Source: Deltaproteobacteria bacterium
GTDB lineage: Bacteria > Desulfobacterota > Desulfomonilia > Desulfomonilales > Desulfomonilaceae
Assembly (NCBI GenBank): GCA_021777225.1
Contig: JAJYDQ010000005.1
Coordinates: forward strand, 1 to 64,000
Reading direction: 5' to 3'
DNA length: 64,000 bases
The notes under the pieces: model-generated
Databases searched by the model: none
Told to the model about the DNA's origin: nothing
What the model saw: only the letters and a program-made list of their open reading frames with translations
In this document: positions 35,154 to 37,272 of the stretch, one piece after another
Numbering within the stretch: the first letter of the stretch is position 1
How the letters are laid out: every line of letters begins with the position of its first letter
Program-made: the position numbers and the translations under genes

Positions 35154-36497
35154 ATGACCTATTTTGCTGATCTTCACGTGCATTCAAAATACTCTCGCGC
35201 AACATCAAAGGACTGCGATTTGAACGGATTGTCGCAATGGGCTGCGCTTAAGGGAATAAGTGTGGTGGCAACCGGTGACTTTACCCACCCTGAATGGCGC
35301 AAGGAGTTACATGACAAGTTGGAGCCACGGGAAGACGGACTTTTTGGACTTAAACCAGAATCAACACCAATACCTTTAATTGATTCATCAGTTTTCTTAC
35401 CCGGTGACATGCGATTTATCCTCAATGTGGAGATAAGTTCAATCTACAAGAAAAACGGTAGAGTACGCAAAGCTCACAACCTTATTTTCATGCCTGACAT
35501 GGAAACTATGGATAATTTCTGCACGCGTCTCGGCAAAAGGGGGAATCTTAATTCAGATGGTAGACCCATACTGGGCCTTGATTGCAGGGACTTACTTGAA
35601 ATAGCTCTTGAGACATCGGAGCGATCTTTTGCCATTCCTGCGCATATCTGGACCCCCTGGTTCTCGGCGCTTGGTTCCAAATCGGGTTTTGACTCCATAC
35701 AGGAGTGTTTTGAAGACCTCACTGGCCACGTCCTTGCCGTGGAAACAGGACTTTCATCGGACCCAGAGATGAATTTCAGGGTGTCAGAACTTGACCGGTT
35801 CACGCTGGTATCCAATTCCGACACCCATTCACCGTCGCGTCTTGGTCGAGAAGTCAACATTTTCTCAGGACAACCTTCGTATCCCTCTATACGCGAATCG
35901 TTGCGCATTGGTGGCGCAGGTTCCAGGAATACGGAAAATTTCCTTGGCCCAAGACAATCAATAATGGAAGACAGACGGGTCAAGGGTGATGCGCCGGGAT
36001 TCGTCGGCACAATTGAATTTTTTCCCGAAGAGGGGAAATATCACATGGACGGGCACCGAAAGTGCGGGATTCGCCTGGACCCCCAAGAGACAGAGACCTT
36101 AGCAGGAAAATGCCCGGTCTGTGGTCACGCTTTAACCGTTGGGGTAATGAACAGGGTGAATCAGCTTGCAGACAGGCCGAATGGCTATACTCCAGCCAAA
36201 GCGGGTTACTATTGGAGGATGCTTCCGTTGATTGAGATTGTGGCTGATTGCCTTGGTTGTGGAGTACAGGCGAAGAAGGCCAAAGAACTTCATTTTCGAT
36301 TAATTAGGGACCTTGGCCCAGAGTTGGATATATTGTGGTCATTGCCGCTGAACGAAGTTGAAACATACGCGCCTCCAATAGTTGCGGAAGCGCTAAAAAG
36401 GGTAAGGGCTGAGCAGGTACGAATTGAAGCCGGTTATGACGGAGAATACGGTAAGGTTTCCATATTTGAAGATAGTGAACGTAAAAATTTTGGATAG
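35154..36497 (+). CDS. PHP-domain DNA endonuclease, EndoQ-like
   Basis: 447 residues. The chain starts with the PHP metal motif DLHVHSKYSRATSK (6-19) and continues with ATGDFTHPEW and VSNSDTHSPSRLGRE (219-233), completing the polymerase/histidinol-phosphatase-type metal site. A small zinc module follows (Cys304, Cys320, Cys323 and a later Cys pair, DCLGCG). This combination is typical of endonuclease Q, which nicks DNA 5' of deaminated bases such as uracil and hypoxanthine; the group is often misnamed UvrD helicase. Known in archaea and some bacteria. It is followed by an independent promoter, so probably a single-gene unit. Confidence 0.82.
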   Translation: MTYFADLHVHSKYSRATSKDCDLNGLSQWAALKGISVVATGDFTHPEWRKELHDKLEPREDGLFGLKPESTPIPLIDSSVFLPGDMRFILNVEISSIYKKNGRVRKAHNLIFMPDMETMDNFCTRLGKRGNLNSDGRPILGLDCRDLLEIALETSERSFAIPAHIWTPWFSALGSKSGFDSIQECFEDLTGHVLAVETGLSSDPEMNFRVSELDRFTLVSNSDTHSPSRLGREVNIFSGQPSYPSIRESLRIGGAGSRNTENFLGPRQSIMEDRRVKGDAPGFVGTIEFFPEEGKYHMDGHRKCGIRLDPQETETLAGKCPVCGHALTVGVMNRVNQLADRPNGYTPAKAGYYWRMLPLIEIVADCLGCGVQAKKAKELHFRLIRDLGPELDILWSLPLNEVETYAPPIVAEALKRVRAEQVRIEAGYDGEYGKVSIFEDSERKNFG

Positions 36498-36524: not shown

Positions 36525-36553
36525 TTGACATAAATGTTATATTCAGATATATA
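36525..36553 (+). promoter_or_regulatory. Near-consensus promoter of the candidate selenoprotein-arsR unit
   Basis: TTGACA (36525-36530), a 17-base spacer and TATATA (36548-36553), with transcription predicted to begin near 36560 and a leader of about 95 bases. The -10 region overlaps ATAT-TCAG-ATAT (36539-36550), an imperfect dyad of the sort ArsR-family repressors bind, so autoregulation by the downstream ArsR protein is an inference. Confidence 0.6.
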
Positions 36554-36654
36554 TATAAAAGCGGTAAAGGCGCGTTTTGGGTCCCTATGAGAAGTGGATT
36601 TAGGTGACTCGAAATGTCCAAAGATCACATAACTCATTCAAAAGGGTTTTAGAA

Positions 36655-36813
36655 ATGGAACTTGCTATCATTATAGCTGTATTTGTCGGTTGGTTTGTTC
36701 TTAACCGTTGGCTTCTTCCTAAAATGGGTGTCTCGACATGAATGTCGGCAGGATGTTCCCCCGTGAACAGGGGATCGAACGAAGCGCATGATCCTGATAA
36801 CTATCGGAAATAG
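36655..36813 (+). CDS. Small membrane protein, candidate selenoprotein (in-frame UGA at codon 29)
   Basis: AAGGG lies eight bases before the ATG at 36655. The first 28 codons give MELAIIIAVFVGWFVLNRW and LLPKMGVST, a single membrane span plus a short cytosolic or periplasmic part. Codon 29 is TGA (36739-36741). If read as selenocysteine, 23 more codons follow to TAG at 36811-36813 (MSAGCSPVNRGSNEAHDPDN and YRK), giving 52 residues with a U-x4-C pair. A SECIS-like hairpin follows the UGA at the expected distance. If UGA is a true stop, the product is a 28-residue peptide. ArsR follows 21 bases later, suggesting one transcript. No selenocysteine machinery genes are in the window, so the reading is a hypothesis. 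Confidence 0.55.
36757..36774 (+). promoter_or_regulatory. SECIS-like stem-loop after the UGA codon
   Basis: TCCCC (36757-36761) pairs with GGGGA (36770-36774) around the eight-base loop CGTGAACA. The loop begins 20 bases after the UGA and has G in its second position, both within the known limits for bacterial SECIS elements. A competing stem TGTTC/GAACA can form in the same stretch, so the fold should be computed. Confidence 0.4.
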
Positions 36814-36834: not shown

Positions 36835-37272
36835 ATGGGTTTCGCTAATGAGCAGACAGGACGAGAGGTTTTTGATCCTACGGTTAACGGAGATTTTTCA
36901 GGTTCGGGCCAACCTTTTGAAGGCGTCGAAGAGGACCAGAAGAGTAAGGATGAGATTTTCAACCTGATCAAGAGGATGGAATTTACGAGAGAAGCCGAGA
37001 TTTTTAAGGCGCTTGGACATCCCATCCGATTGAAGATAGTCTATGGTTTGCTTAAAGTTGGTGGGTGCAATGTAAAGAACATGCAGGAATGCCTTGGTCT
37101 TCATCAAGCTACAGTTTCTCAGCACCTGATTCACTTGAAAACCCGGGGGATAATCCAGTCGTCCCGGCAGGGATTGGAAATGGTTTACACTGTCACCGAC
37201 AACTGGGCCAAATGTATTGTTGACAACATTGAGAAAAGCAACATGTTGGTATCCGACAATTCCATCGATTAA
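36835..37272 (+). CDS. ArsR-family transcriptional regulator
   Basis: 145 residues from the ATG at 36835, eight bases after AAGG; a GTG at 36826 is the alternative. After a ~45-residue N-terminal extension the winged helix-turn-helix starts at FKALGHPIRLKIVYGLL, then NMQECLGLHQATVSQHLIHLKTRGII (recognition helix) and the wing SSRQGLEMVYTV. ArsR-type repressors respond to metals or redox state through Cys/His sites. Here a Cys lies at GGCNVKNMQEC, a possible thiol sensor, but the classical arsenic site is not clear. It is encoded 21 bases after the candidate selenoprotein, which it may control. Confidence 0.88.
   Translation: MGFANEQTGREVFDPTVNGDFSGSGQPFEGVEEDQKSKDEIFNLIKRMEFTREAEIFKALGHPIRLKIVYGLLKVGGCNVKNMQECLGLHQATVSQHLIHLKTRGIIQSSRQGLEMVYTVTDNWAKCIVDNIEKSNMLVSDNSID

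Follow-up and report, generated by a model that had tools for sequence, protein, structure and literature searches.

A small membrane protein with an in-frame UGA and a SECIS-type hairpin is probably a selenoprotein of a widespread, likely undescribed family

Does the TGA at positions 36739-36741 of this 64,000-nucleotide stretch of DNA (the window) end a frame of 28 codons, or is it read as selenocysteine (Sec) within a longer one? We re-read the sequence against a preliminary description of the locus, and all coordinates matched. A ribosome-binding site, AAAAGGG (36640-36646, + strand), precedes an ORF on the same strand (36655-36813) that reads MELAIIIAVFVGWFVLNRWLLPKMGVST-TGA-MSAGCSPVNRGSNEAHDPDNYRK-TAG, with ATG at 36655, 28 codons, the TGA, 23 further codons and TAG at 36811-36813. 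With the TGA translated, the product would have 52 residues (M1–U29–K52; MELAIIIAVFVGWFVLNRWLLPKMGVST-U-MSAGCSPVNRGSNEAHDPDNYRK). The re-reading also bore out the Cys five residues past the UGA, which is Cys34 (36754-36756, + strand), a candidate resolving Cys, as well as the hairpin at 36757-36774 (+ strand). This hairpin has a 5-bp stem, TCCCC (36757-36761)/GGGGA (36770-36774), and an 8-nt loop, CGTGAACA (36762-36769), which begins 20 bases after the UGA and has G at position 2. From the sequence comparisons described below, we conclude with a probability of about 0.9 that the ORF encodes a selenoprotein in which the UGA is read as Sec; standard gene callers should cut it at the UGA or miss it. 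Between the upstream gene and the ORF lies a promoter-like arrangement of TTGACA, a 17-base spacer and TATATA (36525-36553) that the consensus scan left unscored; that scan gave no scored promoter 5' of the ORF and no terminator.

The 52-residue query was compared with 60 related genomes, and nearly all clear matches contained one in-frame TGA at the same position. Close relatives kept this position with 65–85% identity on either side of it, and an alignment of 30 translated homologues showed that W13, P22, G25 and U29 were invariant and M1, W19, L21, T28, M30 and S31 nearly invariant. Of 395 genomes from the host's phylum, 173 contained the family in a protein search, and all of the matches listed carried TGA. 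In a scan of GTDB DNA, the pattern W-[x]-L-P-[KR]-x-G-[VI]-x-T-(TNN)-M left the site open to any of the 16 codons that begin with T; 80 loci were examined, a sample of the matches listed, in collection order. The site codon was TGA at 79 of these 80 loci and TGC at one (L151), while TAA or TAG occurred at none. By record titles, the 80 loci span more than 10 phyla, including Deltaproteobacteria/Desulfobacterota, Acidobacteria, Planctomycetes, Spirochaetes, Verrucomicrobia, Obscuribacter, Myxococcota, SAR324, Zixibacteria, LCP-89, Rokubacteria, Armatimonadetes and others. The preliminary description had proposed looking for a TGA conserved in Sec-using genomes and had named homologues ending here with other stops as evidence against Sec; the conserved TGA was found, and no homologue was seen to end at this codon with TAA or TAG.

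About 53 of 247 Acidobacteriota genomes carried the family, 52 in the TGA form and one in a Cys form (genome G652, locus L199). Four Acidobacteriota matches without TGA that covered the helix part only (G523, G565, G641, G637) and two short matches with two TGA (G561, G628) were set aside as doubtful, and a candidate Cys paralogue (G019:C21) proved to be an unrelated frame. A tblastn search against plasmids gave no family match. Downstream of the TGA, the frame was open for 15 codons in 100 of 100 distinct TGA members, compared to 54 and 48 in the other two frames. Conservation past the UGA, for which the preliminary description had also called, extended in homologues to the Cys at +5, which 79 of 99 distinct members have. 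Roughly one member in ten had no Cys within 15 residues, so the U-x4-C pair is not essential.

We compared the distribution of the family with that of the Sec machinery. The host genome encodes selA, selB and tRNA-Sec, three of the four components named in the host check proposed earlier. In the host's phylum, selB was present in 165 of the 173 family-positive genomes, selA in 7 of the other 8, and tRNA-Sec in the last (G206). The association of the family with Sec machinery was significant (Fisher P = 5e-4) but only moderately informative, since Sec use is common in this phylum (selB in 353/395 genomes). In Acidobacteriota, selA was found in 48 of the 52 TGA genomes versus 113 of the 195 others (Fisher P = 1e-6), and all four TGA genomes without selA had tRNA-Sec. 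In other phyla, 42 of 48 TGA genomes contained selA; among the remaining six, four had a full selB, one had a partial selB-like match, and one, a fragmented Verrucomicrobia MAG of more than 1000 contigs (G428), yielded neither selA nor a full selB in searches for these two genes. All tested TGA genomes except this MAG hold at least one Sec-machinery gene. Cys replacement, suggested earlier as a check, was found as TGC/TGT in place of TGA at two loci (L151 and L199), and the searches of the two Cys-form genomes (G464 and G652) gave neither selA nor tRNA-Sec, nor, for G464, a full selB.

The published model of bacterial SECIS elements (bSECIS) has an upper stem of 4–16 bp, an apical loop of 3–9 nt whose first or second base is G, and a distance of 16–37 nt between this loop and the UGA (PMC13188914). 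For each member we took the best short hairpin with a loop 14–25 nt past the UGA and used synonymous-codon shuffles as the control. The mean hairpin energy was -8.6 kcal/mol in 100 distinct members compared to -3.1 kcal/mol in the shuffles, and hairpins that reached -4 kcal/mol or less and had G among the first two loop bases were present in 88 of 100 members versus 25% of shuffles. The loops of the 100 members started 14–24 nt after the UGA, the prevailing ones being GGA, GTC and GGTC, with starts at 17, 20 and 23. In the commonest hairpin class, six stem positions were paired in 78% of cells versus 29–45% when slid, and compensatory stem changes of the CG, GC, TA and AT types occurred at several positions. 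These features, and those of the window hairpin, agree with the published model (PMC13188914). The Cys form L151 has a weak hairpin with the loop CCCCCGC and no G in the first two positions. An Rfam scan of the region gave chance-level matches only, with no model hitting the hairpin. Codon conservation, the Cys forms, the SECIS features and the co-occurrence with Sec machinery thus all support the earlier proposal that this UGA is read as Sec.

AlphaFold2 predicted a helix at residues 2-23 (codons at 36658-36723, + strand) followed by an unstructured tail, with a pLDDT of about 85–93 in the first 20 residues; the model is confident for the helix only. This segment is hydrophobic in all homologues, and the predicted helix agrees with the single membrane span described earlier. 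The span is followed by the invariant family motif W-x-x-P-x-x-G-x-x-T-U-(M), usually then by Cys at U+5. Mean net charge rises from -0.6 ahead of the span to +1.9 directly behind it, so under the positive-inside rule the N-terminus would be outside and the C-terminus inside. This charge pattern suggests that the Sec motif lies at the cytoplasmic face of the membrane.

The ORF is followed on the + strand by a gene for an ArsR-family regulator with conserved Cys in GGC, QEC and WAKC (36835-37272; Pfam HTH_5, NCBIfam HTH_metalloreg), starting at ATG 36835 or GTG 36826, and next by a NikR gene. The regulator scored 70.7 against NF033788 (cut-off 55), which places it in the ArsR/SmtB type, and 43 bits against the BigR sulfite/sulfide-sensing repressor model NF040642 (cut-off 155). 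It has a long N-terminal extension, and its conserved Cys lie in GGCNVKNMQEC and WAKC; its BigR/TsoR model matches are below cut-off. The regulator is possibly a thiol or persulfide sensor, and its gene is probably co-transcribed with the selenoprotein ORF. This adjacency is a feature of the host's taxonomic family, where the ArsR protein downstream keeps its Cys and the upstream gene is a TlpA-like redoxin in several genomes, and does not hold across the whole selenoprotein family. In the window, the upstream gene (35154-36497) resembles TIGR00375 below the family cut-off and encodes CPVC mid-gene and CLGC later on, two C-x2-C pairs; it is the conserved upstream neighbour in the host's genus.

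Near neighbours were defined as genes on the same strand within 700 nt (n = 106), and genes more than 2.2 kb away served as the far control; the two sets are imperfectly matched, since only the near one contains relatives from the host lineage. The Pfam tally of near neighbours comprised redoxin/AhpC-TSA/thioredoxin (11/106), Pyr_redox (4), DUF302 (4) and rhodanese (3), with NikR also frequent, and none of the four groups with counts appeared among the top families of the far control. Thioredoxin adjoins the selenoprotein at five loci (L112, L113, L146, L147, L153), and a pyridine nucleotide-disulfide oxidoreductase (L144), an MBL-rhodanese (L133), a TauE protein (L126) and a sulfide-quinone-reductase-like flavoprotein (L154) adjoin it at one locus each. 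The Cys form L151 adjoins a DsbD-thioredoxin protein, and the Cys form L199 adjoins a YgaP-TM protein and a flavin reductase-rhodanese fusion. RND efflux genes occur near L089, L112 and L121. Neighbours differ among lineages, and no universal partner was found. Proteins of DUF302, a Pfam domain whose function is unknown, sit next to the selenoprotein in several genomes of different groups (L080, L109, L122, L130), which may offer a hint at what this domain does.

Other readings of the locus were weighed against these data. The TGA could be a true stop whose following ATG opens a second small ORF by TGA-ATG coupling, giving two peptides and no Sec. In 98 of 99 distinct members the next codon is indeed ATG, and the segment downstream, which is hydrophilic, could form a peptide of its own; however, one member (L023) has ATC there, TAA and TAG are never used at the site in the 80 loci, a Cys codon joins both halves into one protein in the two genomes lacking Sec machinery, the distribution follows that machinery, and the hairpin has the loop features and spacing of a bSECIS element. 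These observations make the two-peptide arrangement very improbable. Even less credence is due to the idea that the short ORF and its hairpin serve the ArsR gene as a leader peptide or attenuator: the ORF lies directly 5' of that gene in the host's taxonomic family, but the selenoprotein family is kept in other phyla where the gene surroundings are quite unlike these, conservation covers both halves of the protein, and the scan gave no terminator-like site between the ORF and the ArsR gene. That the frame is merely open by chance past a normal stop could be argued from the commonness of short ORFs and the lack of an Rfam SECIS match, yet conservation in more than 10 phyla, TGA at 79/80 loci, 100/100 open frames and hairpins stronger than in shuffles refute it, leaving it a negligible likelihood.

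Under the selenoprotein reading, ribosomes would arrive at the UGA (36739-36741), SelB on the hairpin (36757-36774) would bring Sec-tRNA, and translation would continue to the TAG at 36811. The product would carry one N-terminal transmembrane helix, then the U-containing motif and usually the Cys five residues on; the selenol and this Cys would form a selenenylsulfide couple. Such a couple could link thioredoxin-type partners to a sulfur, thiol or metalloid substrate associated with the membrane, carrying either electrons or sulfane sulfur between them. The adjacent ArsR-type repressor would probably co-regulate the selenoprotein in the host lineage. We tentatively propose a membrane-tethered cytoplasmic selenol relay (redox/sulfane sulfur) as the most likely role, though at clearly less than an even chance; judging by the U-x4-C pair and the neighbouring genes, the product may be a redox protein, as proposed earlier. 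A relay in thiol/sulfane-sulfur redox is favoured because of the redox and sulfur neighbours. The main functional rival is a selenoprotein that binds a metal or metalloid through a membrane-anchored selenol/thiol ligand, in association with ArsR, NikR and RND efflux, instead of acting as a relay. The multi-Cys ArsR and NikR genes adjoining in the host's taxonomic family and the three loci with RND efflux genes speak for such a ligand, whereas neighbours of the thioredoxin, redoxin, rhodanese and disulfide-reductase types are more frequent and turn up repeatedly in several phyla, and NikR is limited to the host's lineage in this sample; we regard metal binding as unlikely.

The family had no match in Pfam, NCBIfam (release 20, June 2026, including selenoprotein models; curated cut-offs) or PDB sequences. 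None of the 119 prokaryotic selenoprotein families and subfamilies compiled in 2026 (PMC13188914) corresponds to it when compared by names, motifs and domain models; the families of Haft and Tolstoy 2025 were covered through the same table. The literature on TsoR-type and small membrane selenoproteins yielded no description of the family, which is probably, though not certainly, missing from published work; a C. jejuni paper from this search concerns SelW and was set aside. Very likely, this is an undescribed and overlooked selenoprotein family that occurs in more than 10 phyla, in about 44% of the genomes sampled from the host's phylum and 21% of those from Acidobacteriota, and almost only in the Sec form. 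Sec proteins usually have abundant Cys relatives, and the departure of this family from that rule suggests a function in which Cys seldom suffices. It would have been overlooked because truncation at the TGA leaves a 28-residue fragment and homology methods depend on Cys relatives; its near-lack of Cys forms fits the caveat of the deep-Sep authors that selenoproteins lacking Cys homologues may escape their method (PMC12013277). By its species range in this sample, the family would rank among the wider bacterial selenoprotein families, offering a compact model of about 50 residues for the role of selenium at the membrane and implying an added selenium demand in many anaerobic and soil lineages.

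Among known systems, the MerT-type and SO_0444-type selenoproteins (PMC13188914) are likewise membrane proteins with Sec but belong to other Pfam/NCBIfam families, and this family matches neither. Proteins with the YgaP-like transmembrane domain (PF11127) are also small membrane proteins, found together with rhodanese and flavin-disulfide reductases, although the selenoprotein family does not match the Pfam model. One such protein (L199:1717-1917, - strand), with the C-terminus GISTCSSSKGH, lies directly upstream of the Cys form and gave no significant pairwise match to it; the shared GxxTC is a resemblance only and may reflect functional convergence. No family in PMC13188914 is presented as a single-span membrane protein of 50 residues that bears a GVxTUM motif, but like the prokaryotic selenoproteins compiled there, the present family appears to use UGA as Sec, with a bSECIS within the spacing limits, an occurrence in Sec-using genomes and a U with a nearby Cys.
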